DNA from: Gammaproteobacteria bacterium
GTDB taxonomy: Bacteria; Pseudomonadota; Gammaproteobacteria; Pseudomonadales; Pseudohongiellaceae
Direction: 5' to 3'
DNA length: 64,000 nucleotides
Assembly (NCBI GenBank): GCA_030654835.1
Contig: JAURWS010000055.1
Span: forward strand, 62,001 to 126,000
Shown piece after piece: positions 17-20,300 of this stretch. Below the pieces are notes generated by a model that did not search any database, was not told where the DNA came from, and worked only from the letters and a program-made list of their open reading frames with translations. Position numbers and translations under genes: made by a program. Positions within the stretch are counted from its first letter, which is position 1. Every line of letters begins with the position of its first letter.

Positions 17-754
17 ATGACTACGACTGACTCAAACAAGCTAAAAACCCTGTATGCCAATCTGACCTCAGGCACTCCGCTGACTTCGGCCGACCTGGCA
101 GCACTGGGCATCTCCGCAGACCTGGCCGTTCACTACGTCCGCGCCGGTTGGCTGACGCGCCTGGCACGCGGAGTCTTCTGCCGCCCTCAAGATTCGCTGG
201 CACTTCACCCAAGTTTGGTTTTCCTGCAGCGTCGGCTTGAAGGTCTGCACGTTGGCGGCAAGTCTGCATTCGACTGGTACGGCGTGCGCCAATACGCATC
301 TCAGCAGCCGCTGCTACACTTGTATGGGTGGGATGCGGGGCGTCTGCCGGATTGGTTCGTCGAACGCTTCCCCGCGGATTATCACCGCAACCGTCTGTTC
401 AAGGAGGAACCCGACGCCATGCTGCATGTCAGTCCATTCGAGAATGTCAGGAACGCGCCCCGGGTGTCAGAACCCGAGCGTGCGCTATTGGAGCTGCTGA
501 GTGACGTTGGTGTGCGGCAGCCTCTGCAGGAGGCTCGCGAACTGGTCGAGAGTTCGTACAGTCTGCGCGCGGATGTGTTGAGCGAACTGCTGCATCTTTG
601 TACGAGCGTCAAGACAGTACGCCTGTGTCTGCAACTCGGCCTTGAAGGCTCGTTACCTTGGGCCGCCAAACTTGATCCAGCCACATTGCCGACGGGCGGC
701 GACAAGCCCTGGGTCTCGAAATCAGCCGATGGTCTGTTGGTACTCAAACCATGA
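17..754 (+). CDS. AbiEi-family antitoxin (type IV toxin-antitoxin)
   Basis: The 245-residue protein has an N-terminal winged-helix-like region (about residues 22-57, ending in the family-typical stretch GWLTRLARGVFCRP) followed by the AbiEi C-terminal domain (SEPERALLELL near residue 153). In this family the antitoxin binds its own promoter and counteracts the AbiEii nucleotidyltransferase without direct contact. The stop codon overlaps the next start (ATGA, 751-754), as expected for a translationally coupled abiEi-abiEii pair. The frame stays open to the window edge, so a start upstream of base 17 cannot be excluded; no Shine-Dalgarno is visible in the 16 bases available. Confidence 0.85.
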   Translation: MTTTDSNKLKTLYANLTSGTPLTSADLAALGISADLAVHYVRAGWLTRLARGVFCRPQDSLALHPSLVFLQRRLEGLHVGGKSAFDWYGVRQYASQQPLLHLYGWDAGRLPDWFVERFPADYHRNRLFKEEPDAMLHVSPFENVRNAPRVSEPERALLELLSDVGVRQPLQEARELVESSYSLRADVLSELLHLCTSVKTVRLCLQLGLEGSLPWAAKLDPATLPTGGDKPWVSKSADGLLVLKP

Positions 755-1668
755 ATCAGATCTACCTCGATACTGCGCGTCTGCTGACGCAGGTTGCACC
801 GCTTGTGTTCGCGGACGACACTTTCGCGCTCAAGGGTGGGACTGCCATCAACCTTTTCATCCGCGATATGCCACGGCTGTCGGTGGATCTCGATCTGGTG
901 TTTCCGGATCACACTCTGTCGCGTGAAGACGCACTGGCGCGCATCAACGATGCAATCCGACAAGCCGCCGAGCGCCTGAACAAGCGTGGGTTCCAGACAC
1001 ACATCCCGCCAGCGGATGCTGGAGAAACCAAGTTGCTGGTACGGCGTGATCGTATCCAAGTAAAGATCGAAGCCAACTTCGTGATGCGCGGGACGGTGCG
1101 GCCGGTGCGCCGTGCTTCGCTCACACTTGCGGCTCGTGGCATGCTGATGGCCGACCTGGAGATTCCAGTGGTGTCATTGGAGGATGTCTATGGTGGCAAG
1201 CTTTGTGCCGCGATGGATCGCCAACATCCTCGAGACCTCTTCGACATGATGCTGCTCTTTGCGCACGAGGGAATCACGCCTGGAATCCGCCGCGCCTTCG
1301 TTGTGTATCTTGCCAGTGGCAATCGTCCGATCCACGAAGTGCTCTTTCCGCAACTGCGCGACGTACGCTACGACTTTGAACACAACTTTCAGGGCATGAC
1401 TACTGAACCGGTGTCGCTGAATGACTTGCTCGCGGCCCGGGATCGGATGGTGCGCGAAATTCATCAAGGTCTGGATGACAACGAACGGCGCTTCCTGCTT
1501 TCGCTGGTCAGCGGGTCGCCTGAATGGCCGTTGCTTGGAATTGATCATCTTGAACATCTGCCGGGGATTCGTTGGAAGCTGCACAACCTTTTGGAGTTGC
1601 AGAAGAGCAATCCGAGGAAGTTTGCCGAACAGGAAGATATGTTGGCCGGACGTCTGGGCGGATTCTGA
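751..1668 (+). CDS. AbiEii/AbiGii-family nucleotidyltransferase toxin
   Basis: The 305-residue protein carries the DNA polymerase beta-type nucleotidyltransferase signature of AbiEii toxins: GGTAINLF at residues 29-36 and SVDLDLV at 44-50, with the two catalytic-type aspartates at 46 and 48. Further along are the family's YGGKL and DRQHPRDLFD segments (about residues 148-167). Homologues modify cellular RNA or nucleotide pools and cause growth arrest or abortive infection of phage. All key residues visible here are present, so the toxin looks intact. It is coupled to the antitoxin by a 4-base overlap. A second, broken AbiE locus lies at 15365-16004. Confidence 0.87.
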   Translation: MNQIYLDTARLLTQVAPLVFADDTFALKGGTAINLFIRDMPRLSVDLDLVFPDHTLSREDALARINDAIRQAAERLNKRGFQTHIPPADAGETKLLVRRDRIQVKIEANFVMRGTVRPVRRASLTLAARGMLMADLEIPVVSLEDVYGGKLCAAMDRQHPRDLFDMMLLFAHEGITPGIRRAFVVYLASGNRPIHEVLFPQLRDVRYDFEHNFQGMTTEPVSLNDLLAARDRMVREIHQGLDDNERRFLLSLVSGSPEWPLLGIDHLEHLPGIRWKLHNLLELQKSNPRKFAEQEDMLAGRLGGF

Positions 1669-7285: not shown

Positions 7286-7963
7286 TCAGTCGTCTGCAAG
7301 CTCTTCCTCCAGCGACACCAACAATTTGTTCACCTCCCGCACATAAAGCGCCTGTAGAAAGGGCTGCCGAGGATTAGGGTTGCTCTCGACCCTCTCCAGC
7401 AATTGCAGATAGTACTGCTGTGCTTCCGAATAATTCTCATCGACAATATTGGTGAACCCGTAAAAATACCGATTCGAATCCGTGGTGTTGTCAATTGCCC
7501 ACGCTTCTTCAAGTAGCTCCTTGCCTCTGTCCTTGTCGCCAAAACTCAGCAGCCAACCCGGCGCTCCGATATAGAGGTACCCCAGGAAAGCCTGAGTCAG
7601 CCCTCGGTTGTGGAGTCGGTCTAATGTGAGAGCGTGCTCCAGCTCGTCACGAGAAAAATTCATCAGACGCGTTCCGTTGATAATTCCTTGTGTTGATGCG
7701 TAGCCGAAACGAATCCGCGCTGTGGCAACCCACGCGTTCGGATCTGTCTGGTGGAGATCGCGGTAACGCACCGCTTCATCGAGTAGTTCTGCGAGAGGTT
7801 TTTCCAGCGCTTCATCTGTGATGAGCGTGATTTGCATTTCAGCGTATCGTTCGATGAGTTGATCAGGCACCGACAGCGATTGTCCGCTGGCGTTGGTCAT
7901 CACCAGCATGGCGATGAAGGCAATCAGTTGTGCGCAGTATGTTCTATTCATGACACTCTCCAT
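7286..7963 (-). CDS. Secreted TPR-like protein of unknown function
   Basis: The 225-residue protein starts with a signal peptide (about residues 1-28, ending near TNASGQ). It continues as an all-helical sequence with TPR-like spacing of small and aromatic residues, for example the segments around AWVATARIRFGYAS, RGLTQAFLGYLYIGAPGW and NRYFYGFTNIVDENYSEAQQYY. The layout recalls periplasmic TPR proteins such as TatT, but I do not recognise a family. The ATG at 7963 is preceded by GGAGG five bases away; an ATG at 7951 also has a Shine-Dalgarno. It reads in the same direction as the downstream tetR and the upstream kinase genes, but the 94-base and 190-base gaps suggest its own unit. Confidence 0.65.
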   Translation of the reverse strand: MESVMNRTYCAQLIAFIAMLVMTNASGQSLSVPDQLIERYAEMQITLITDEALEKPLAELLDEAVRYRDLHQTDPNAWVATARIRFGYASTQGIINGTRLMNFSRDELEHALTLDRLHNRGLTQAFLGYLYIGAPGWLLSFGDKDRGKELLEEAWAIDNTTDSNRYFYGFTNIVDENYSEAQQYYLQLLERVESNPNPRQPFLQALYVREVNKLLVSLEEELADD

Positions 7964-8057
7964 GACAACCTCCATTACAGTTTCGTGTAGAGGAGCAAGC
8001 CCTGTGCCAGGAGCTGTGCGCGTTGAAACTCAAGGAAATACCGCGTGCAGATAGATG

Positions 8058-9476
8058 CTAATTGTCGACGCGATCGCGGAATTGGGAAGAGAGCGATTCG
8101 ATTGCGGGAATATTGATGGTCACGCGACAGCCGCGTTGGTCCGTCCTGTTGCTGACATTGATGTCGCCTCCATGCGCTTCAATAATCTGTTGCGAAATCA
8201 CAAGGCCAATTCCTGATCCGTGCGGCTTGGTCGTATAAAAAGGGACGAACAGATTGTCCAGACTTTGAATACCTTCTCCAGAGTCCACAATGGTGATAGT
8301 CAGCCTCTTATCGTGCACTTCCCAATCGACAACAATCGGGAGAGGAGGGGCGCCTAACTTCGCACTTGATCTCTCAGTTGACTCGATGGCGTTCTTGATC
8401 AGATTGATCAGAACCTGTTCCATCAGAAGCGGATCGATGACTACTTCAGTTTCACTGCCGTTGATATCGATAGCACTGTTCGGAAAAAGGCTGACAACTC
8501 GACGGATCAACTGCAACAGCTCAACCTTCCTTTTCGATAGCGTCGGCAGTTGCGCAATCTGCTGATGGTTCTTCACAAACTCGGCCATCGATTCTGCACG
8601 GTGGCTGATAATGGAGATGCCGTCGACCAATTCCTTGCGTAGTTCTGCGTCCTTCTCTCGCAATCGCACCTGCTTGCTCAGCGCATTGCTCAACGAGACT
8701 AGGGGCGCAAGGGAATTATTGATCTCATGACTGAGCACGCGGATCAGGTTTCGCCAAGCTTTGCGTTCTTCTGACTTTAGCAGCTTCGATACATCGGTGA
8801 TGAACAGCAGGCTGTTGGAGTGGCCGTCGGCGATGAAGCGCTCAACGTGCAGGCGGAATCGTCCACGCGCTTTCGCGATGTCCAGATCGAGGACGCGCGT
8901 TTCTCCGGCTTGAAACTGATTCGCTATCTGCAACGCTGGAGGAAGCTGAAGCGCTTCCACGCCGTAGTTAGAATTCTCGGGAGGAACGCCAAGTAGTTTC
9001 TCCGCAGCAGGATTGATGAACTGCATGCGGCCGTCTTTCCCCCACGCAATTATCGAGACATCAATCTGGTCGATGATCTTCCTGACCAGCAAGAGGCTTT
9101 CCTCGGACTGCAGTCGCTGCTGCTGCGAGGCCCTTGCCAGCGCGTTGATCGTTCCGACAAGTTCCCCGAGTTCCCCGCTTTCCCGCTCAGCAACTCCGCG
9201 CAGAGAGTGATCACCCTGGATGATGGATTCGAGCAGATTGTGCAGGTTGCGATACTGGTCCTGCGTTCTGCGCCAGATTGTCATGACGCAATGCAGCGTC
9301 AGGAATGCAAGGAGGCATCCCGCAATACCGATGAGGTAGCCAGAGACATCGAAGAACCAGAGAGTTGCAACCAGAAGTATGGAAGGAATAGCGGTGCCGG
9401 CGAGCGTGATTAGAGCGAGCTTTCTCTCGAAGCTGAGTTTCTCGCCTTTTGTGTTCGCCTCGCGCAAGTATTTCAC
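8058..9476 (-). CDS. PAS-containing sensor histidine kinase (NtrY/NtrB-like)
   Basis: The 472-residue membrane kinase has two transmembrane helices (about 20-42 and 47-67), a HAMP-like linker, a PAS domain (about 130-230), a DHp domain with phosphorylated His250 in VLSHEINNSLAPL, and an ATPase domain. N and G boxes are visible as LINLIKNAIES, DSGEGI and GSGIGLVIS. It should phosphorylate the response regulator encoded directly upstream. The gene begins with GTG 17 bases after the regulator's stop. The short loop between the two helices suggests that it senses a membrane or cytoplasmic signal rather than a large periplasmic ligand. It is the last gene of the exporter operon. Confidence 0.9.
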   Translation of the reverse strand: MKYLREANTKGEKLSFERKLALITLAGTAIPSILLVATLWFFDVSGYLIGIAGCLLAFLTLHCVMTIWRRTQDQYRNLHNLLESIIQGDHSLRGVAERESGELGELVGTINALARASQQQRLQSEESLLLVRKIIDQIDVSIIAWGKDGRMQFINPAAEKLLGVPPENSNYGVEALQLPPALQIANQFQAGETRVLDLDIAKARGRFRLHVERFIADGHSNSLLFITDVSKLLKSEERKAWRNLIRVLSHEINNSLAPLVSLSNALSKQVRLREKDAELRKELVDGISIISHRAESMAEFVKNHQQIAQLPTLSKRKVELLQLIRRVVSLFPNSAIDINGSETEVVIDPLLMEQVLINLIKNAIESTERSSAKLGAPPLPIVVDWEVHDKRLTITIVDSGEGIQSLDNLFVPFYTTKPHGSGIGLVISQQIIEAHGGDINVSNRTDQRGCRVTINIPAIESLSSQFRDRVDN

Positions 9477-9493
9477 CAGTCACTCAGAGTCTT

Positions 9494-10873
9494 CTATTTC
9501 CACCGGAATTTTTCCAGCCGCCGGTAGAGTGCGCTTTTGCTCATGCCCAGCGATCTGGCTGCCTCGACTCCGTTGCCATCGAATTTCTGCATTCTTCTGG
9601 TGATCGCGTTCCTTTCGATCTGCTCGAACGTGGCGTCATCGTCGCAACTCTCCAAAGGCAATGCACTGGTTGCCGAGTCAGGTTGGCAGTTCAAGTCAGA
9701 AGAATCAATTCTGCCTTCTCTGCAAAGAATGACGGACCTCTCAATTGTATTGGATAACTCGCGGATATTACCGGGCCAGGAATAGCGAGTGAGTTGCTCC
9801 ATGGCATCGGAAGTGAACTCTACATTCGGCTTGTTGTACTTGCTGCCGAATTTTTCCAGAAAGTGTTTGGCCAGCGGCAGGATGTCTTCGGTGCGCTCAC
9901 GCAGTGAAGGTACCCGTAGCGTGATGGTGTTGATGCGGTACAGCAAGTCCTGGCGGAATCTGCCCGCGACGACAGCCTGATTGAGATCACTGTTCGTGGC
10001 TGCAACCAAACGACATTGACTTTCCTGAGTGCGGGAAGACCCGACACGTTCGAAGCGCCGTTCCTCAAGAACTCTCAGCAGCTTCACCTGTTGAGAGAGA
10101 GGAATATTGCCAATCTCATCCAGAAACAATGTGCCTTGCCCGGCCAGCTCGAAGCGCCCGATGCGGTTTTCTCTCGCATCGGTGAAGGCTCCCTTCACAT
10201 GACCGAACATCTCGCTCTCAAACAGAGACTCGGAAATCGAGCCCATATTGACGCTGACATAGTCCTGATGCTCGCGCCCGGAAAGTAAATGTACTCTGTG
10301 TGCGAGTACGCTCTTTCCCGTGCCATTCTCGCCGGTCAGAAGCACAGTGGCATCGCTTCTTGCCACCTGCGCAAGTTGTGACATCAACTCCGCCATGACT
10401 CGCGACTTTCCAACGACCAGAGAATTCGCAGAAGTCAGTTGCTCGCTCAGGATCTTGTTTCTCTCTTCCAGCGTTCTGGATTTCTTTTCGCTCTGCTCCA
10501 GCAGTATCTGACTTCTGATCACCGACAGCAGACGATCGTTGTCCCACGGCTTCTGAATGAAATCCCGCGCACCTCTGCGCATCGCTTCGACCGCCAGTTC
10601 GACATTGCCCCACGCAGTCATCACCACAATGGGCATCTGGTCATCGAGCTTTCTGACACTGGCGATCAACTCCAGCCCCTCACTGCCAGATGTCGTGTCC
10701 CGCGCGTAATTCAAGTCCATCAACAGCAGGTTGAAGCTGGACTTGCCCAGCGCGAGCAGCACTTCGTGCGGGCTGTTGGCAGCACTGACACGATAGCCCT
10801 CGGTTTCAAGCAAATACCTCAGGGCCAGGACAATGTCCGGATCGTCATCGGCAATGAGGATGTGACTGTTCAT
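9494..10873 (-). CDS. NtrC-family sigma-54-dependent response regulator
   Basis: The 459-residue protein has a receiver domain (phosphoacceptor Asp53 in LLMDLNY, Lys in DFIQKPW), an AAA+ domain (Walker A GENGTGKS, DEIGN Walker B region) and a Fis-type helix-turn-helix C-terminus (ARSLGMSKSALYRRL). The sigma-54 contact loop reads GAFTDA rather than the usual GAFTGA, so its dependence on sigma-54 should be regarded as likely rather than certain. It starts nine bases after the exporter permease gene and is followed by its probable cognate kinase. It probably controls the exporter operon; I found no clear -24/-12 element directly upstream of the first gene. Confidence 0.9.
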   Translation of the reverse strand: MNSHILIADDDPDIVLALRYLLETEGYRVSAANSPHEVLLALGKSSFNLLLMDLNYARDTTSGSEGLELIASVRKLDDQMPIVVMTAWGNVELAVEAMRRGARDFIQKPWDNDRLLSVIRSQILLEQSEKKSRTLEERNKILSEQLTSANSLVVGKSRVMAELMSQLAQVARSDATVLLTGENGTGKSVLAHRVHLLSGREHQDYVSVNMGSISESLFESEMFGHVKGAFTDARENRIGRFELAGQGTLFLDEIGNIPLSQQVKLLRVLEERRFERVGSSRTQESQCRLVAATNSDLNQAVVAGRFRQDLLYRINTITLRVPSLRERTEDILPLAKHFLEKFGSKYNKPNVEFTSDAMEQLTRYSWPGNIRELSNTIERSVILCREGRIDSSDLNCQPDSATSALPLESCDDDATFEQIERNAITRRMQKFDGNGVEAARSLGMSKSALYRRLEKFRWK

Positions 10874-10882
10874 GTACTTTGT

Positions 10883-13339
10883 TTACTCATACTTCAGCGC
10901 TTCACTCGGCTCCATCGCCAGCACTCTTCTGATCGGATGATAGACTGCAATCAGTACCGTTGAAAACAACACACTGATCACGAGGACTGCCGCCAGTATC
11001 GCCGTCAGTAGAAACTCCGACCCCATCGCCTGCAGAATCGACACTGTGAACGGCAGGCCTGCCAGCATCGCGAGAACGAAGCCAGTCAGCACCTGTTTAC
11101 TGCCGCGCAGAACGAAGGTGCGGCTGATGATGCGATCTGTGGCACCCAGCGCCCGGCGCGTTGCGATGTCTCTGGCATGCACGTTGATGTCATTCTTGGC
11201 CAACCCGAAGATGCCAGTGATGGCCAACAGGAAGGAGAAAGAGCCGCAACCGATGATGATCCTCATCCCGAATTTCAAGGTCTGAGCGTTGGACTGCTGC
11301 TGCTGCGCCCAGTCCGTGATACTCACCCCTACCGACGAATTGATCTGGCGAACTGTTTGCGTGATTATCCGGGCGGTCACACCTGGTTCAGCCACGCTCC
11401 GAATCAATACACTGACACTCTCTGCATCAACCTGGTTCAGCGGCAGATAGACCATAGCGGTTACAGGAGCAAATATACCCCGGCCTGTGAGCGGGGTATC
11501 AGTGGTCACTCCTACGATGCGTCGCCATACGCCGTCTCCGGCCTCGCCCAGGGAAGACACCCGCAGACTCTTGCCAATGGCGGACTCGTCTGGCCACAGA
11601 CGCTCGGCAAGCGACTGGCTTATCACGGCCACACGTTCGCTTTCCGCGCCGTCGAAGGCACCCAAAGGGCGTCCCTCCAACAGAGTGGAGCCAATGATGT
11701 CCAACGCTCCAGAAGCGGTTTGAATGGGGACTGTTGGCCGCTGTTCGGCTGACGCATAGATTTCTCCTTCCTGTTCTATGGCGCGCGCCCCAACCGTCCC
11801 GAGCATCAGCACTTCTCTGACATCAGCTCGCTGAGCCAAGGCTGCGAGCACCGAGCGATTGAACTGAAGGCGCTCAGCGGCATCGTCATACTGATCGCCG
11901 AGGTTCAGTGCAACACTGTGCAGGTTCCTGGAGTCAATCACGGTGAACACTTGATTGACAGACACTAGAGCGGTGCCACCCAGGGTTCCCAGGTAGAGCA
12001 GCAGCGTAATCAATGCTATCGCGACTACTACCAGCGCGCGGCTGAACCGGCCTGATCGCAAACCCACAGCGCCTCTGCTGCCATCTTGCATGACAGAGTT
12101 AAAGTTGCCGTTGATCAGTCTCCAATTGGGAATGGCGCTGGTCACCATGATCATGAACAGGGAGAACAATACCACCGCAATCAGCGTTGATTCATCGACG
12201 GCAAAATTCCACCAGAAGGGAGCTCGCCCCTCTGCCGTGCTGTTGATGTAGATATTGAACACCTCCAGACAAACCCCGGCGACCAGCACTGCGATCACAG
12301 CGCCCCCGGCGGCAATCAGAATGCTTTCGCCCATTGTCTGCATCAGCAACCTAATTCGGGGTGCGCCGAGTGCCACTCTTATCGACGTATCCTTGAGGCG
12401 CTCATTCGTCCTGGCCAGCAGCAGCGTGCTGGTGTTGATACAAGCCAGCAGGAACACCAGGCCGGTCAGCAGATTCATGACTGCGAGAGACACCATGCTG
12501 TCGACGCTGCCCATGATCTTCATTGGTATGGAGGTCACGAAACCGGTATCAACGTGCTCCAGTAGTTGAGGATAAGTGTCCAGGCCGTTGTCCTCAATCG
12601 GTGGATACTGCTGACGAATATTTCGCATCAAATTGTCGATTTCGGCGCTGGCTTCTGCATGAGAGACGCCGTTCTTGAGTCGACCGTAGGCCGATACGGG
12701 TACGAGATCGTTCAGCAGGGGAGCAATTTGCGCAGTGGTTGCGGGTAACCACATTTGTGTCACCAACGGAAACCTGTAGTCTTCGGGCATGACGCCGACG
12801 ACACGAGTCGGGATGTTCTCCACCGCGATCACTTTGCCGACGATTTCACTGTCAGCATTGAATTCCTGCTGCCAGATATCATGGCCCAGTACTACAACCG
12901 GTTCCGCGTTGTCATTCTGGTCAAAACTCTGCAGCGTTCTGCCTTGAGCTGCGGCAGTGGCTGAGAGGGCAAACATGTTCCACTCAGTACGAATAGCCGT
13001 TATGCCGTATACGATGTCGTCAGATTCTACGGATACGCGTTGAGAGGTATAGATGCCCACATTCTCCAGCGACGTAATGTTCTGCCGGATCTGTGCGAAC
13101 TCGAAAGCTTTGAAGGGCCAGCAGTCATTGAGCTTGCTTCCGGTGCACACTTCTACAATGGATTTGCCATTCTCAAGTGGAATGGCTTTATAGGCCAACG
13201 TGTAACTCATGGTGAACGTGAACACACTCAGACCCAGCCCGCCAGCCAGCACGAGAATTGACAGCAATGTAAATCCCGGACTCTTGACCAAGAGTCGGAA
13301 TGAGTGCTTCAGATCAGATTTGGTGAACAGCTTGCGCAT
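10883..13339 (-). CDS. MacB/FtsX-type ABC exporter permease (ADOP-like)
   Basis: The 818-residue protein contains two MacB-type halves. Each has a transmembrane helix, a large periplasmic domain (MacB_PCD-like, for example DDIVYGITAIRTEWNMFAL and GRTLQSF) and an FtsX-type three-helix block. This duplicated single-chain architecture is that of the ADOP permeases. It should form a tripartite MacAB-like export system, or act as a mechanotransmitter, with the adjacent ATPase and adaptor. The ATG at 13339 is preferred because GGGGAG lies upstream; an in-frame extension to 13396 would lie wholly within the ATPase gene. It overlaps the end of the ATPase gene by 26 bases. Confidence 0.9.
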   Translation of the reverse strand: MRKLFTKSDLKHSFRLLVKSPGFTLLSILVLAGGLGLSVFTFTMSYTLAYKAIPLENGKSIVEVCTGSKLNDCWPFKAFEFAQIRQNITSLENVGIYTSQRVSVESDDIVYGITAIRTEWNMFALSATAAAQGRTLQSFDQNDNAEPVVVLGHDIWQQEFNADSEIVGKVIAVENIPTRVVGVMPEDYRFPLVTQMWLPATTAQIAPLLNDLVPVSAYGRLKNGVSHAEASAEIDNLMRNIRQQYPPIEDNGLDTYPQLLEHVDTGFVTSIPMKIMGSVDSMVSLAVMNLLTGLVFLLACINTSTLLLARTNERLKDTSIRVALGAPRIRLLMQTMGESILIAAGGAVIAVLVAGVCLEVFNIYINSTAEGRAPFWWNFAVDESTLIAVVLFSLFMIMVTSAIPNWRLINGNFNSVMQDGSRGAVGLRSGRFSRALVVVAIALITLLLYLGTLGGTALVSVNQVFTVIDSRNLHSVALNLGDQYDDAAERLQFNRSVLAALAQRADVREVLMLGTVGARAIEQEGEIYASAEQRPTVPIQTASGALDIIGSTLLEGRPLGAFDGAESERVAVISQSLAERLWPDESAIGKSLRVSSLGEAGDGVWRRIVGVTTDTPLTGRGIFAPVTAMVYLPLNQVDAESVSVLIRSVAEPGVTARIITQTVRQINSSVGVSITDWAQQQQSNAQTLKFGMRIIIGCGSFSFLLAITGIFGLAKNDINVHARDIATRRALGATDRIISRTFVLRGSKQVLTGFVLAMLAGLPFTVSILQAMGSEFLLTAILAAVLVISVLFSTVLIAVYHPIRRVLAMEPSEALKYE

Positions 13340-14069
13340 TATCGCTTTTCTCCCCGTTAACACGCCTGAGTACTTCGTCCTGTACGATCTGCCCATCGAA
13401 CAGCTCTACGTATCGTTGTGCTCTTCTGGCAGAGGCCGGGTCATGTGTCACCATGCAAATGGTGGCGCCATCCCGATTGAGTTTTTCGAGTAGCCGCATC
13501 ACGATTTCTGCGTTCTTGGAGTCCAGGTTGCCACAGGGCTCATCGGCAAGAAGTATCGCTGGCTTGCCGGCGATTGCTCTGGCGACCGCTGCTCTCTGCT
13601 GTTGTCCTCCCGATGGTTGCGAGGGGAAGTGATCCATGCGTGTCGTCATGCCCACCACTTCCAGCGCGGACATGACTCTCTCTTCAATCTCTGGCCCCTT
13701 CAGATCCTGTCGATACGTCAACGGCAGTTCGACGTTCTCGTAAATGGTGAGATCGCTGATCAGATTGAAGGATTGAAAAATGAAGCCGATTTCCTTGTTG
13801 CGCAGCCGCGCGCGTTCGTCTCGGCTGAGCTGAGAGGCATTATGTCCATCCAGCAGATACTCGCCTGAGCTGGCGACGTCCAGCAATCCGAGAATGGATA
13901 ACAGCGTGGATTTTCCGCATCCCGATTGGCCCGCGATGGCAATGAACTCGCCCTGACCGATGCGAAGATTGATGTTCTGCAACGCATGCGTTTCCAGAGC
14001 TTCTGTTGCATAGACCCTGGTGATCGCTTTCAACTCGATGACTGGCTGGCTTGAATTTTTATCTGTCAT
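13314..14069 (-). CDS. MacB/LolD-type ABC transporter ATPase
   Basis: The 251-residue ATPase shows Walker A (GQSGCGKST, about residues 39-47), Q-loop (FIFQSFNLISDLT), a signature reading PSGGQQQR in place of LSGGQ, Walker B with catalytic Glu (ILLADEPCGNLDS) and the H-loop (CMVTHD). The DEPCGNLD wording is characteristic of the LolD/MacB/FtsE branch. AAGGA precedes the ATG. It lies 10 bases after the adaptor and overlaps the permease start, so all three exporter parts are made together. The Leu-to-Pro change at the start of the signature motif is common in this branch. Confidence 0.93.
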   Translation of the reverse strand: MTDKNSSQPVIELKAITRVYATEALETHALQNINLRIGQGEFIAIAGQSGCGKSTLLSILGLLDVASSGEYLLDGHNASQLSRDERARLRNKEIGFIFQSFNLISDLTIYENVELPLTYRQDLKGPEIEERVMSALEVVGMTTRMDHFPSQPSGGQQQRAAVARAIAGKPAILLADEPCGNLDSKNAEIVMRLLEKLNRDGATICMVTHDPASARRAQRYVELFDGQIVQDEVLRRVNGEKSDNAQAVHQI

Positions 14070-14079
14070 GAATCAGTCC

Positions 14080-15336
14080 TTATCGTATCAGTATCCGTTC
14101 GTGGTTTTCCCAGGCGCTGGGATCGGAGATTATCACGCGATCCCCAGCCTCCAACCCCTCAAGCACTTCAATATGATTGCTGGATGCCTCGCCAAAGCGA
14201 ACGGGAATTCTATCGGCGAATGCGCCGTCCTCGCTCAGCTTGTAGATGTTCGCTTGCCGTGATGCCTGGGCAAAGACTGGCCTTCGTACAAATTTCGTCT
14301 CGGAGATGTGGGCTATTTCAATGGTGGCCTCGATATTCAGTTCCGGGCGGGCTTCAGAAGGTAACTCGTCCAACAATGTGATTTCGACTACAACGGTGCC
14401 ATCAACAACTGCTGGATCGATTCTCGATACCTCGCCCTTCACAATGGTGCTGCGGGTATTGATGTCCGCCTTCATGCCCAGCTCGATGCTGCTGACTTGA
14501 AGCTCGGGCACTTTCACCTCTGCGATGAGATCATCGGGCCTGACGATACGCGTCAGCAAGTCTCCTTGCCGCACTTGCTGGCCCTGTCGAAAACTCATCT
14601 CCTGCACGATCCCATCCAGTGACGCACGCACAGTCAGGTTGGCAACCTGCGTTCGAAGACGTTCAAGCGTTCCTTGCACCTGTCGGAGTCTCGCTCGCTG
14701 TGCGTCATCCCCCGCGCTCAGTGCCTCCTTGTGCTTTTCGAGCCGCTGCTGCAGAGACTCCCAGTGTTTCAGGACTTTCTCTACATTCAGGCGAGTTCGC
14801 TGGTGTTCCAGCTGGGAGATAATTTGTATCCCTCGACTCAACAGCTCGTCCATGGCCTGCAAGTCCAGATTCGCGTGCTGATAGTCAAGTTGTGCACTCT
14901 CTACTGCGGCCTGCAGGTCGAGAAGCTCAGACTCTCTGGTGATCTTCGCAGACGAATAGTCGGCCTCCATTGCCTCCGCTTCCAGTTGTGTGTCCTCCAG
15001 AAGCTGGAGCAATTGCGGATTACTCAGCTTGAGCACCGGGTCGCCCTTGGTGACACGATCCCCCGCGCGAACCATGACTTGTTCAATCAGCCCGTCTGAT
15101 TCTGCCCCGATGAAGAAGATACTCTCCGGGGCCAGCCGTCCGTAGCCGCTGACGGTGATCAGCAATTCTCCCTGGGTGACTGAATCCATGAGAATCGAAC
15201 CCGCATCCGCCATGTAAGTCACGTTGCGAAATCGATTGGCGTAGATCAGAAGTCCTGCAATGAGGAGCGCTCCGGCAATGAGGGTCCAGTATTTACGATA
15301 GAGAGGGGTTGTCTTTGTCACTTTTACGATGTCCAT
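14080..15336 (-). CDS. MacA/HlyD-type periplasmic adaptor of the ABC exporter
   Basis: The roughly 418-residue adaptor has an N-terminal membrane anchor (about residues 17-34), lipoyl halves around a long alpha-helical hairpin (about residues 100-230, rich in Glu, Gln and Leu heptads) and beta-barrel domains. It is the first gene of the adaptor-ATPase-permease-regulator-kinase operon and would connect the MacB-like permease to an outer-membrane channel. The start is uncertain: ATG at 15336 gives an MDI start common in relatives, and ATG at 15366 adds ten residues; neither has a good Shine-Dalgarno. Immediately beyond it, on the other strand, lies a truncated AbiEi gene, so its promoter may sit in remnant DNA. 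Confidence 0.88.
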   Translation of the reverse strand: MDIVKVTKTTPLYRKYWTLIAGALLIAGLLIYANRFRNVTYMADAGSILMDSVTQGELLITVSGYGRLAPESIFFIGAESDGLIEQVMVRAGDRVTKGDPVLKLSNPQLLQLLEDTQLEAEAMEADYSSAKITRESELLDLQAAVESAQLDYQHANLDLQAMDELLSRGIQIISQLEHQRTRLNVEKVLKHWESLQQRLEKHKEALSAGDDAQRARLRQVQGTLERLRTQVANLTVRASLDGIVQEMSFRQGQQVRQGDLLTRIVRPDDLIAEVKVPELQVSSIELGMKADINTRSTIVKGEVSRIDPAVVDGTVVVEITLLDELPSEARPELNIEATIEIAHISETKFVRRPVFAQASRQANIYKLSEDGAFADRIPVRFGEASSNHIEVLEGLEAGDRVIISDPSAWENHERILIR

Positions 15337-15364
15337 GGAGGACAAATAGAGCAGAGACTGTGCC

Positions 15365-15973
15365 ATGTATGTAATCGTTTGTTTTTTAAGATATAACCAC
15401 GGTGCTCAGCTTGCTGTGTTCCCAGTATCGGACTTCGCTTTAGAAGGGGATTCCCGATATTGGGAACCTGATCGATTGCCAGGCTGGGTGGGCAAACTGC
15501 CACTCACGGAACGCTTCGAGTCGTGCGGTCGCGGGCCATTTGATTTCCCGCCACTCCAGTTCGAGGTCAACGCGCCCGATCAGGTATTACTGGGCCAGGG
15601 ACTGCAGCGACTGTCGCCCACTGCAGGTTTGGAGCCAATCCTCGCGTCTTCTCCAGAACGAGCTATGCTTGAACTGTGCGACGCCCTCACGGACGCCGCG
15701 CTTGTCTACGAACTGGATGCGCTAATGCAGGGGATGACTACTTTACGCCCGCAGCGAGTCAGCATGTTGTTGCGCCATTGTCGGAGCATCAAGGCCAAGC
15801 GCTTGTTTCTAGCACAGGCGGACCGTCATCGTCATCGTCATGCCTGGCTGGAGCATGTGTCGCTTGCGCAGGTCGATCTGGGCCGTGGCAAACGTTCGCT
15901 GGTGCCGGGAGGGCGGCTGCATCCTGTTTATCAAATCACGTTGCCCGGAGATTTGGATGAGCAAACAAGATAA
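15365..15973 (+). pseudogene. 5'-truncated AbiEi-family antitoxin
   Basis: From about base 15395 the frame encodes the C-terminal two thirds of an AbiEi antitoxin. It includes the central LPGWVGKLPL segment, the SSPERAMLELCDAL motif, LRPQRVSMLLRHCRSIKAKRLF and the terminal VDLGRGKRSLVPGGRL / YQITLP stretch that ends this subfamily. The N-terminal winged-helix half is missing; the preceding residues resemble no AbiEi N-terminus, and the DNA runs straight into the divergent adaptor gene. The product would therefore lack DNA binding. It differs clearly from the intact AbiEi at 17-754, so it is not a duplicate of it. Family assignment is from memory of conserved motifs. Confidence 0.75.
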
Positions 15974-16004
15974 CCTTGGTTGTCGATTAACAACCGTTCG
16001 CTAG
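15957..16004 (+). pseudogene. Remnant start of an AbiEii toxin gene
   Basis: An ATG at 15957 overlaps the end of the AbiEi remnant by 17 bases, the position where abiEii should start. It reads only 15 codons (beginning MSKQDNLG) before a TAG at 16002. No nucleotidyltransferase motif follows in any frame, so almost the whole toxin gene has been lost. The assignment rests on position, not on recognisable domain sequence. Confidence 0.4.
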
Positions 16005-16027
16005 GCAACTACTCTTCAGAGCAACGG

Positions 16028-16206
16028 ATGGCTCGACTAAAGCACCCAAACAAGGAAGTGGAAGCCGCATTGCACCATGCTGAAGTTAATGGTTGGCGCA
16101 TTGTCACTGGTGGCAGTCACGCATGGGGCAAGATGTATTGCCCTTACAATGCCGATGTCTGCCGCTGCGGCGGGTCATCGACAATTGCATCCTGCGTAGT
16201 TAGTAG
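16028..16206 (+). pseudogene. HicA-like small toxin with internal deletion and frameshift
   Basis: The reading frame from ATG 16028 gives MARLKHPNKEVEAALHHAEV, then NGWRIVTGGSHAWGKMYCP with a GSH motif like that of HicA-fold mRNA interferases, then CRCGG. The sequence then stops looking like the family, but two bases out of frame the DNA reads RRVIDNC... to tandem stops at 16201-16206, which resembles the usual C-terminus of these small proteins. The simplest reading is a deletion of a few dozen codons between CRCG and RRVIDN that shifted the frame. The relationship to HicA and the expected C-terminus are recalled, not searched. Confidence 0.55.
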
Positions 16207-16227
16207 ATTCAACATGAGAAGCACTCA

Positions 16228-16749
16228 ATGGAATACACCTTCACCCTCAAATTCCATTTGCCCGACGAAACCATCAACGTCGACGACGCCATTGAGCGTC
16301 TCGGTGCCGCTGGCTGCGATGACGCCCTGATTGGCATCGGTCTCCCGGGCCGCATCGCACTGGAGTTCACCCGAGATGCCGACAGTGCCATCGCCGCGCT
16401 CAGCAGTGCGCTGGCAGATGTGAAGCGCGCCTTACCCTCGTCGCAGTTGATCGAAGTTTCCCCCGATCTGGTTGGCTTGACGGATGTAGCAGACAAAGTG
16501 GGAGTCTCGCGGCAGAACATGCGCAAGTTGATGTTGAATCATGCCTCCACGTTTCCGGTGCCCGTACACGAAGGCACGACGTCGCTCTGGCATCTGCTCG
16601 ATGTACTCGCGTGGCTACGGGAGAGGGGAGGTTATCTGGTCTCGCAGGAGTTGATGGAGGTTGCGCAGGTGGCGCTCTGGATGAATCTGCGGAAGGAGAG
16701 TGCGAGGCTGGACGATGCGCCTGAAGAACTGGGTCTGGATTTTGGTTGA
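16228..16749 (+). CDS. DNA-binding antitoxin-like partner of the HicA-like remnant
   Basis: The 173-residue protein begins MEYTFTLKFHLP, a beta-rich N-terminal half of about 80 residues. It ends with a helix-turn-helix-like segment (about residues 86-135: LVGLTDVADKVGVSRQNMRKLM, then SLWHLLDVLAWLRERGG). Such proteins are found directly after the small HicA-like gene and probably act as its antitoxin and autoregulator. Here the frame is complete while the presumed toxin is broken, and 21 bases separate the two. It ends close to the next promoter region. I know of no gene symbol. Confidence 0.6.
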   Translation: MEYTFTLKFHLPDETINVDDAIERLGAAGCDDALIGIGLPGRIALEFTRDADSAIAALSSALADVKRALPSSQLIEVSPDLVGLTDVADKVGVSRQNMRKLMLNHASTFPVPVHEGTTSLWHLLDVLAWLRERGGYLVSQELMEVAQVALWMNLRKESARLDDAPEELGLDFG

Positions 16750-16780
16750 CGTCGCTACGCCTTTTTCAAATTTTAAATGC

Positions 16781-16825
16781 TCATATACGAACGCTTATGA
16801 TGCATCGCCGCTCATATCTGATGAG
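16781..16825 (+). promoter_or_regulatory. Candidate promoter-operator of the hipB-like gene
   Basis: This AT-rich stretch directly before the hipB-like gene holds two inverted repeats: TCATA at 16781-16785 with TATGA at 16796-16800, and CTCAT at 16811-16815 with ATGAG at 16821-16825. A -10-like TATGAT starts at 16796. Paired palindromes overlapping the promoter are typical HipB operators, but binding here is inferred only. Confidence 0.4.
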
Positions 16826-16831
16826 GTTCTC

Positions 16832-17248
16832 ATGCCCGCCCCTGACAGAAAGCCCCCGGCTCCTCCAACCGTATTACCACGCCCTGTAGAGCGGGCACTG
16901 CACACCTTGGGTCAGGATATTTCGGCGGCACGCCGTATGCGACGGCTCAGCCAGGAAGATCTGGCTCAGCGTGCCGGGGCATCTGTCAGTACCATCAGGC
17001 GCATGGAGGATGGCCACCCTGGCACGGCGTTGCATGCGTTCCTGCGCACTTTGCAAGTGCTCGGCCGTCTCGAAGGAATGACCCGCCTGATGGCGCTGGA
17101 AAGTGATGATCTGGGGCTCGAATTGGTGAAAGTGCAATTACCGCAGCGTATCCGCACTCGGGGTAAGAAGTCAGGTGAGCGCCGTTCTGCAGGTCTGGAA
17201 GAGAGTGGAGAGACTATCTCTCGCAGCGATGAGTTGGAGGGATTCTGA
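16832..17248 (+). CDS. HipB-like XRE-family antitoxin/regulator
   Basis: The 138-residue protein carries an XRE helix-turn-helix (about residues 25-80: ISAARRMRRLSQEDLAQRAG, VSTIRRMEDG). It is followed by the LRTLQVLGRLEGM stretch found in antitoxins paired with HipA kinases, and a basic C-terminal tail. ATG 16832 follows GAGG. Its stop overlaps a well-placed ATG (17246-17250) preceded by GGAGGG, the coupling expected for hipA, but the hipA coding sequence is nearly gone. Without its toxin it would act only as a DNA-binding repressor of its own promoter or of related modules elsewhere. Confidence 0.8.
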   Translation: MPAPDRKPPAPPTVLPRPVERALHTLGQDISAARRMRRLSQEDLAQRAGASVSTIRRMEDGHPGTALHAFLRTLQVLGRLEGMTRLMALESDDLGLELVKVQLPQRIRTRGKKSGERRSAGLEESGETISRSDELEGF

Positions 17249-17363
17249 TGCTCGGCAGCGTCAGAGAGATCTCAGTCTGACTCCGGAACAGGCAGAGGGT
17301 ATCTGGAAAGAAGTCTCTCATACGATGGCCTGTTGGCGTTCAACCGCGAAAGTCTTGGGCGGG
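17248..17363 (+). pseudogene. hipA toxin remnant (start and C-terminal tail only)
   Basis: The ATG at 17248 overlaps the hipB-like stop and has a strong GGAGGG six bases upstream, yet its frame ends after ten codons. In another frame the following bases read DLSLTPEQAEGIWKEVSHTM then ACWRSTAKVLG. This looks like the last helices of HipA kinases, where LTPEQA..I..EV precedes a Trp-containing tail. Thus the kinase body of about 400 codons has been deleted, joining the start to the tail out of frame. The tail overlaps the end of the convergent GGDEF/EAL gene (stop at 17340). Confidence 0.6.
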
Positions 17364-20300
17364 CGCGATGACGCCCGCACGCAGCAGCGGTGCGATGTCG
17401 GCCGCGAGTAACGGTTTCGAATAGTAGAAGCCCTGCACCTCGCGGCAGCCCCACATTTTCAACAGATTCAACTGCGCCGCCGTTTCCACTCCCTCCACGA
17501 TCACCGGAATGCCGAGTTCGCGGGCCAGACTGAGCGCTGCTTTCACGATAGCGGCGTCACCACTGCTGCTCGTCAGTTCAGCGATGAAGTTCTGCGCGAT
17601 CTTGATACGGTCGACGGGAAAGCGGCGCAGGTAGTCCAATGACGAGTAGCCTGTCCCGAAATCGTCTATGGCCAGGCGCAGGCCGCTCGCGCGCAGACGC
17701 AACAGTACATCGTTGTGCTCCTGGGATGCCTCCATCAGCATGCTCTCGGTCAGCTCAAGTTCCAGGTGCTGACGTGGCAGGCCCGTCTCCGCGAGGATGT
17801 TGGAGACTTGGGTTTCCAGCTCGTGCGGGTTCTTGAATTGCACACCGGAAAGATTGACTGCGATGAGTATCGGGGGGATTCCAGCGTCAAGCCAGCTGCG
17901 GGCCTGCCTGCAGGCTTCCTGCAAGATCCATTGGCCCAGCGCCACGATAAGTCCCGTCTTCTCGGCAATCGGCACGAAGACTGTCGGGCTGATCAATCCG
18001 CGCTCGGGATGATCCCACCGCATCAAGGCTTCCACGCCGACGATGCGGCCGGTTTCGATTTCAACCTGCGGCTGGTAGTGAACGAAGAGCTGGTTCATAA
18101 CCAGTGCCTGACGCAGCTCCATAGCCAACCGGACCCGTGTTCGGACTTCTATATCCATGGCCTCGGTGAAGTACCGGAATGTGCCACGGCCTTCGGACTT
18201 GGCGCGATAGAGCGCTACATCGGCCTGGGAAAGCAGCTTCTCTGCATCACCGCCGGACTCGTCGTGGAACGATATTCCAATGCTTGCCCCCGTCCGGATT
18301 TCGTTGCCACCGACGTCGAACGGCACCGCGATACTCACAAGTATGCGATCGGCGAACGCAGCGGCGTCAGCTGGGTCCGACAGGTCAGTCTGCAGAATAG
18401 CAAACTCGTCGCCTCCGAACCGGGCTACGGTATCCGTCGCGCGTGCCACTGACAGAAGCCGCCTCGCTATTTCCTGCAGCACCAGGTCGCCAACAGGATG
18501 GCCGAGCGTGTCGTTGATGTCCTTGAAGTGATCAAGATCGAGGTACAGTACGGCGAACGGCGCGCCACCGCGTTGCGCGCGCGCAATCGCGTCGCCCATT
18601 GCGTCTACGAACACCCGTCGATTGGCCAGACCGGTCAGTGCGTCATGCTGCGCCAGATGGTGCATATATTTTTCGGACTGTTTGCGCTCGATAATGTCAC
18701 GCACGAAGGCCACCGCATGCCATAGCGAGAGCAATTGCATTGCCGAAAAGGACATATCAACCGGAATTTCGGTTCCATCTTTGCGGCGCGCAGCAAGCTC
18801 AAAGACACCGGCCGGTATTGCCGCCTTTCCGATCTCCGCGAACTTGCGCAGTCCGGCTGTCGCCCGCTCTTTGTCTGCAGAGGAGGCTAGAATCTCCCGA
18901 ATATCCATGCCGTCCGCTTCTTGCGCCGTGTATTGAAGGCTGTGCTCTGCAGTGCGATTCCAGTAAACAATCTTGCCGCTACTGTCGAAAATGATGATTG
19001 CATCCGGTGCGTTTTCACTGACAGCACGGAAGCGCTCTTCACTTTGCCGCAATTCTTCCTCGTCCCGCTTCCGTGCAGTGACATCACGGAAAAAGCTGAT
19101 CCGGCCGAGCCTCTTGCCCGAGGGGGCCCACATCGAACCTGCATGGCATTCGATTGCACGGCCGTCGATCAAATCGAGTTCGCGGTGGATCGTGGAGGCA
19201 GGATCGGCCCTGAAGCGTGCGACATCGGCCTTGAATTCGTCCGGCTGCTGCACCTGCGACAGGACTTCCGCCAGTACCGCATCGGGATTCCGGGAAGCCA
19301 CGGTCGCGGGCAACAGGCCCCACATCGCCTGGAATTTCGCGTTCCAAGACGCCAGCCCCGTGCTGGTATCGACCACCAGTACACCATCAGGCGCGCTCTC
19401 GATCTCGCTCGCAAGGAGGGTGTTTGCAAACTGCAGCCGCTCTTCGGACAAGCGTTGCTCCGTTACGTCGACGAAGCTGGACCGAATCAGCCGTTCCCCT
19501 TCTGCGCTCGGAAGCTGCGCCATGTGCACCTCGCACACGAGTTCCTCCTCTCGGGTGTTGCGAATCTTGCAGTCGAAGGTGAGCTTTTCACCTGCCAGCG
19601 CGCGCAGGTTGCGGCTATCCACGCTAGCGCGGATCGTCTGTGAATCTCCTTCAGCAGAGGAATAGAAGCGCTCGGGGCCGGTAGCGATGAGTTCCTTCCG
19701 CGAACTGCCGAATAGCAGTTCGGCGCTCTCATTGGCGTCGGTGAAACGACCTTGATCGTAGTCATATACGAGAATGGCATCAGGCGCTTGGTCCAATAGC
19801 ACGCGAAACCGCGCTACGCTTGCGCGCAGTGCCGCTTCGACGGAGCGGCGCGCCCGGCTAACCAAGGCAAGCCCCAGTTTATCCGCCAGTTGTTCCGCGA
19901 AAGCGATTTCGTCATGTTCCCAGTGGTGCGGTCTGCCCACGTGTTCGAAACACAAAAGTCCAAGGTGCTTGCCCGATATCTGGATGACTGCGTCGAGCAT
20001 CGACGTGATACCGAGCGGCTTGAGATAACTGTCGATGTATCCGATCGTTCTGGGGTCGGACAGGGGATCGTCGGCGGCAACGTACCGGCTTTCCTTCAGG
20101 GCCCGGAATTCGTTGCGGTACTGCGCCTCGGTCAACACTGCTCCGGACGTATGGGACTTCTCGCCCGCCGTAAAGGCGTCAATGCATCTCAGGCTCGTCT
20201 CAGTCTCATCGAAAAGCCAGACATTGACACGCTCGCAACCCACGGTTGCGGCCGCGCGTTCGGTGATGGTGCGGGCGAGGTTCTCGACATCGCCCGCGAG

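Follow-up and report, generated by a model that had tools for sequence, protein, structure and literature searches.

The window analysed here is a stretch of 64,000 nucleotides from a gammaproteobacterium of the family Pseudohongiellaceae (assembly GCA_030654835.1, contig JAURWS010000055.1, positions 62,001 to 126,000). Between its positions 15365 and 17411 lie the remains of three adjacent gene pairs of the toxin–antitoxin (TA) type, the poison genes of which are gone or broken. The segment begins with the palindrome of an efflux operon and continues with a C-terminal remnant of AbiEi, a gene pair that PADLOC lists as PDC-M06 (PDC presumably meaning phage defence candidate; M06A and M06B in the following), a hipB-like gene and the tail of a hipA gene, which overlaps the 3' end of a convergent PAS-GGDEF-EAL gene. 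A preliminary description, made from the letters alone, had recognised three such remnants, and they are present as claimed: AbiEi, a small gene with a winged helix-turn-helix (wHTH) partner, and hipB with a hipA tail. It was also right that each module has lost its toxin part, AbiEii being gone, the small gene frameshifted and hipA reduced to a tail. As to the partner proteins, M06B and the hipB-like gene are indeed complete in the window, while AbiEi lacks its N-terminal ~97 residues. The features are the following.

15461..15973, plus strand: remnant of the AbiEi C-terminal domain (CTD), identified by Pfam PF11459, the PADLOC AbiEi profile, the stump of the related genome G004 and the full-length relative L132.
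15957..15975, plus strand: former site of the abiEii start, from a visual comparison with L132, whose AbiEii start overlaps the end of abiEi.
15979..15994, without strand: putative M06 operator/promoter palindrome, after the GTTGTC-NNNT-GACAAC pattern in upstream regions.
16028..16203, plus strand: PDC-M06A gene (putative toxin), frameshifted, identified by the intact G004 copy (L022:32-274) and PADLOC.
16228..16749, plus strand: PDC-M06B, an intact wHTH partner of 173 amino acids (putative antitoxin or repressor), identified by PADLOC (E 1.8e-75), alignments and predicted structure.
16832..17248, plus strand: hipB-like gene, intact, 138 amino acids, identified by TIGR03070, HTH_31, HTH_3 and the 60%-identical relative L125.
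17249..17411, plus strand: hipA remnant, the last ~30-40 codons, identified by the profile match of its G004 counterpart and by DNA alignment.

The AbiEi open reading frame (ORF) comprises 202 amino acids and opens at 15365; its first ~32 codons are flank. Residues 37-194 match AbiEi_3 (Pfam PF11459) with an E value of 1.2e-29, covering domain positions 13-157 of 157, and the PADLOC profile of AbiEi is matched with E 2.2e-45 at positions 98-232 of 233. Since this coverage starts at position 98, the N-terminal wHTH part is gone. A full-length relative of the stump, L132 in genome G139, is 67% identical. By eye, no AbiEii could be seen in the 54 bases from the AbiEi stop to the start of M06A (no AbiEii profile was run here); comparison with L132, again by eye, leaves ~5 start codons of abiEii arguable. 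Neither an AbiEi with both wHTH and CTD nor an adjacent AbiEii nucleotidyltransferase is thus found at this site. The intact AbiE pair that had been noticed some 14 kb away does exist, on the low-coordinate side, with AbiEii at 751-1668.

17..1668, plus strand: intact abiEi-abiEii pair, identified by Pfam AbiEi_3_N, AbiEi_3 and AbiEii and by PADLOC.

The small gene had been taken for HicA-like, which is not borne out: it has no Pfam match at E ≤ 1 and no in-register match to a HicA profile, and PADLOC assigns it to PDC-M06. The comparison by hhalign with a 19-sequence HicA alignment gave a 17-column match that is out of register, both alignments being shallow. The intact M06A of G004 matches six PADLOC PDC-M06A models, the best with E 2.6e-47, the copy in the window only positions 1-50 of 87; by profile, the system is thus represented by M06B in the window and by M06A in the intact copy. 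The lesion is a deletion of 67 bp at ~16165-16170, which is flanked by short direct repeats and causes the frameshift. The identical deletion, with the same ends, occurs in a separate assembly (L098:3788-4003, compared with window 16028-16230), a metagenome-assembled genome (MAG) under the label Pseudomonadota bacterium; its M06B and that of the window share 64% identity. An exact TGCGGCG pair at the spacing of the deletion is present in 28 of 69 intact M06A genes, so that the site looks slip-prone. AlphaFold predicts for M06B a beta-alpha-beta-beta-alpha-beta domain followed by an apparent winged-helix region (mean predicted local distance difference test, pLDDT, 87.5) and for M06A the order alpha-beta-beta-alpha, at a mean pLDDT of 78.0; no solved structure related to either protein was found at E ≤ 1. 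A literature search by name found no paper mentioning PDC-M06.

The hipB-like protein matches TIGR03070 (couple_hipB) with E 8.9e-12 and 44.8 bits, which is below the curated cut-off of 71.65; its matches to HTH_31 and HTH_3 are above theirs. The profile search proposed earlier for the toxin remnants gave a mixed result: no match for HicA, as said, and for the hipA tail of the window, taken alone, a weak E of 0.017 (six-sequence profile, two targets searched), while the G004 tail, ~95% identical in its DNA, reached 2.1e-7 in the same search. A HipA kinase downstream of hipB is absent from the window, the C-terminal remnant excepted. Among plasmid-borne relatives of hipB (168 found, 15 listed), all five examined are directly followed by an annotated hipA. 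A search of 194 genomes of the order for a close relative with hipBA intact gave matches with E ≤ 1e-15 in 6 of them, at 7 places, two of which were examined. The window's own genome has a hipBA with both frames open (L130), its hipB being 50% identical to that of the window; in L125:1477-2261, from another family of the order, no hipA-like ORF was seen beside the 60%-identical hipB. There, a parD-like gene, recognised by eye, follows hipB.

The alignment with related genomes that had been suggested proved informative. Fourteen genomes of the genus, the window's own included, were searched with positions 15000-17800. Eight matched; the segment itself is found only in the window's genome and in G004, and the other matches concern the efflux flank, M06 genes elsewhere or the GGDEF-EAL side. 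G004 shares the AbiEi stump (L023; 95% identity, same left junction, likewise without AbiEii). Its M06 pair is intact; of the two genomes, only the window's has the M06A deletion. Its hipB breaks off after ~68 codons and continues, in the same frame, into a piece of hipA tail that is longer than the one in the window. The window thus keeps the whole hipB and less of hipA, G004 half of hipB and more of hipA. As the ends of the hipA deletions differ and the M06A deletion is present in the window but not in G004, separate losses are supported. An observation in its own right is the product of the deletion in G004 (L022:903-1500), an in-frame fusion of the HTH half of hipB with the hipA tail, open over 199 residues.

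Two related genomes hence show the three modules at different stages, which allows the losses to be put partly in order: the loss of AbiE would have preceded the split of the two copies, hipA would have been lost separately in each lineage, and M06A in the lineage of the window. Assembly or sequencing artefacts might of course mimic such breaks, since G004 is a MAG of ~500 contigs, the window's assembly has 60, and assemblies, not reads, were compared. Yet the lesions are deletions and not changes of single bases, the AbiEi stump is seen in both genomes, and the 67-bp deletion recurs in a separate assembly; we consider this explanation hardly credible.

Harder to dismiss is the view that acquired genes simply decayed neutrally, in a part of the chromosome that is variable, without any special selection against toxins. 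Gene order does vary in the genus: in G005 the efflux operon is followed by glgC and what corresponds to 20.6-23.3 kb of the window is found on the operon's other side, which marks the segment as variable, and G004 lacks 7.65 kb beside the operon. Moreover, both partners are damaged in AbiE and in the hipBA of G004. Substitutions between the window and G004 speak for either side. When all differences in the AbiEi stump are counted, 14 of 24 are synonymous, compared with 7.3 expected (P 0.004), which argues against neutrality; a recount by another method and gap placement gave 15 synonymous and 9 non-synonymous ones. Without 15797-15850 the figure is 9 of 16 (P 0.026), and without the entire dense cluster at 15797-15873 it is 6 of 12 (P 0.12), which is compatible with neutrality. 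With the P value fading in this way, strong purifying selection on the stump was rejected. The clustered differences may well stem from recombination with intact homologues, and maintenance of the stump is therefore not claimed. The corresponding values are 4 of 8 synonymous for M06B (1.9 expected, P 0.087), 7 of 10 for the hipB half (3.2 expected, P 0.012; all 10 differences fall within 16886-16942) and 42 of 76 for part of the neighbouring EAL gene (20.5 expected).

A role as regulator or as anti-addiction protein is possible for orphan antitoxin parts, and the latter is discussed for orphan antitoxins in two papers (PMC7192599, PMC7354431). Could the remnants have been kept for this reason, the AbiEi stump being a free-standing neutralising domain? 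The AbiEi CTD is described as sufficient for antitoxicity by Dy et al. (2014, PMC3985639); the stump corresponds to this domain and resembles a laboratory truncation reported to neutralise AbiEii by itself. Its frame is open in the window and in G004 despite a 6-bp indel, and the window retains hipB and M06B in full. On the other hand, the same paper reports AbiEi truncations to be unstable; the stump lacks ~12 residues of the Pfam domain and is only 31% identical, over 118 residues, to the window's intact AbiEi; and the clustering of the differences (P 0.12 without the cluster) suggests recombination, which would import a purifying pattern. We regard retention for anti-addiction as improbable.

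Which partner breaks can be asked most broadly for M06. A contig scan yielded at least 391 relatives, of which the best 80, ranked by M06B, were kept; M06B is thus intact by selection. Of the accompanying M06A genes, 69 are intact; at the other 11 loci M06A is broken or missing, at one of them (L098) through the 67-bp deletion seen in the window. The bias was reduced by searching both genes in the same genomes (thresholds: E 1e-5 for M06A, to any of six models, and E 1e-10 for M06B). In a sample of the class (369 genomes) M06B was found in 20 and M06A in 16, always with M06B beside it (16/16); in a sample of the family around G033 (398 genomes) M06A occurred in 43 and M06B in 47, and 42 of the 43 M06A were accompanied by M06B. 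G033 belongs to both samples; its locus and the Stutzerimonas locus L087 are identical. Eighteen regions were re-read as sequence; the remaining loci rest on search tables. A broken or absent M06A beside a complete M06B was found in G326, G535 and G393 of the class sample and in G920 (also among the best 80, as L103), G956 and G764 of the family sample, the reverse in none of the classified genomes of both samples. This asymmetry of 6 to 0, from which the window's genome and G207 (M06B cut by a contig end) had been set aside, has a two-sided P of 0.031 by a statistic that ignores relatedness. It is not what neutral decay would predict, M06A being about half as long as M06B. Across the family, a count of genes in assemblies thus supports M06A as the partner found broken. 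All considered, we regard neutral decay as the less probable account of the segment.

The region upstream of M06A is conserved as well. Of 84 upstream regions, taken from 77 of the 80 loci, the window, G004, G001, G005 and three plasmids, 72 have an exact GTTGTC-NNNT-GACAAC, which mostly begins 46-49 bases before M06A. Among the other 12, several deviate by a single base, one is filled with N, and in some the element has been replaced; the operator of the window is altered at one conserved position, that of G004 is exact. The right half holds TTGACA and may thus contain a -35-like element. Such an arrangement, a pair of neighbouring genes behind a conserved operator-like palindrome, is what one would expect of a TA module.

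We therefore consider it likely that three two-gene addiction or defence modules are seen here in different stages of decay, that loss tends to be toxin-first, and that PDC-M06 is a TA module. M06B, with its alpha/beta N-terminal domain and its AlpA/excisionase-like wHTH, would probably repress from the palindrome before M06A and neutralise M06A, the putative toxin. The toxin would tend to go first, since a cell that loses the antitoxin before the toxin should be harmed; the orphan antitoxin may then drift or be co-opted. Breakage and operator of PDC-M06 fit this scheme, and the system appears to be organised and eroded like a TA system. Toxin-side loss has support in M06 and is plausible in hipBA; in AbiE it cannot be told apart from general decay. 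The earlier idea of repeated loss stands in so far as the losses are separate, the deletions differing between the window and G004, and as M06A is the partner broken across its family.

Several observations weigh against toxin-first loss and a TA nature of PDC-M06. Antitoxins decay too: the DNA-binding N-terminus of AbiEi is lost, hipB is halved in G004 and the M06 operator of the window is altered, so that a general retention of antitoxins, as had been supposed, is not supported. Apart from the disregard of relatedness, the call for G393 depends on a single in-frame stop and that for G535 on a single frameshift, and each of these may be a sequencing error. G783, likewise set aside, has a partial M06A near a contig end and no detectable M06B, and M06B fragments without an intact M06A were found, some at contig ends, in eight genomes that were also set aside (G375, G482, G411, G378, G577, G856, G909 and G960). 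G818, G833 and G888 show, as read from the search tables, a single TAA inside a near full-length M06B match. Finally, M06B matches phrog_2620, "excisionase and transcriptional regulator", with E 7.7e-20, and a relative of one tyrosine integrase query lies directly upstream in 47 of the 80 best loci.

The last two findings, together with a guaA match in the fetched DNA of 57 of the 80 loci (L033-L112), might mean that PDC-M06 is no TA pair at all. It would then be a regulator or excisionase linked to the integrase and accompanied by a small accessory protein. We think this unlikely: 33 of the 80 loci fall outside the adjacent-integrase criterion (a single query; two loci have less than 300 bases of upstream sequence), the pairs of G001 and G005, which have both frames open and are located elsewhere in the genome, lie away from integrases as judged by eye, and so do those on cyanobacterial plasmids. 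M06A is broken in 2 of 48 loci with integrase and in 9 of 32 without (Fisher P 0.0055). L097 was moved by hand into the former group, as its M06A deletion had pushed the integrase out of the distance bin, and L033 and L109 (the two with less than 300 bases of upstream sequence) were counted in the latter; the loci being related and the split having been chosen after seeing the data, the association is a lead only. The M06 loci near guaA with an integrase, and TrbI in L087, suggest integrative conjugative elements at guaA. More tentatively, and with confidence just short of even, PDC-M06 could be a new TA family, with M06A as a small Cys/His-rich toxin and M06B as a wHTH antitoxin acting at GTTGTC-NNNT-GACAAC; it would often sit right behind the integrase of elements associated with guaA and serve to stabilise them, the toxin being lost once the element is immobilised.

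Some side observations may be added. TrbI of L087 is encoded downstream of M06. In L028, a Janthinobacterium plasmid, an M06A with three in-frame stops (~1200-1500) stands beside an annotated DNA-binding protein, which is M06B, and the pair is followed by a 6.6-kb gene of unknown function. The left boundary of the segment is marked by a palindrome upstream of the divergent HlyD-type efflux operon, and the AbiEi ORF reads through it.

15398..15467, without strand: palindromic element with arms at 15418-15431 and 15454-15467, from an inverted-repeat search.

Three of the 14 genus genomes contain it, in one copy each. A repeated mobile element was thereby rejected, and the palindrome is taken as the operon's own upstream element. 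In G005 it is followed by glgC where the window has AbiEi. G004 joins window position 7748 to 15398 within one contig and has no match for 15000-15397; the 7.65 kb missing there (7749-15397) include the efflux operon, and the upstream palindrome has been left attached to the AbiEi stump.

In comparison with known systems, the first remnant lacks the wHTH part and the AbiEii of AbiE (a type IV TA system; PMC3985639), yet retains the AbiEi CTD and traces of an abiEii start overlapping the end of abiEi. The order is the usual one of HipBA (type II), a gene with a HipB-like HTH and then C-terminal codons of hipA, although most of hipA is deleted. PDC-M06 shares with HicAB (type II) a small first gene followed by a DNA-binding partner and the predicted alpha-beta-beta-alpha layout of M06A; a GSH-like motif in M06A we take to be a further likeness. 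It differs from HicAB in that M06A has no Pfam match and the N-terminus of M06B is predicted as beta-alpha-beta-beta-alpha-beta. Toxin-less antitoxins are a known kind of thing: orphan antitoxins reportedly abound in Klebsiella, with 2253 occurrences in 105 of 233 groups. The decay of TA systems seen here is ordinary, and the newer part is PDC-M06. Measured against the PADLOC candidate system, the window has a frameshifted M06A and an altered operator, but its M06B is complete, and in G004 both genes are.

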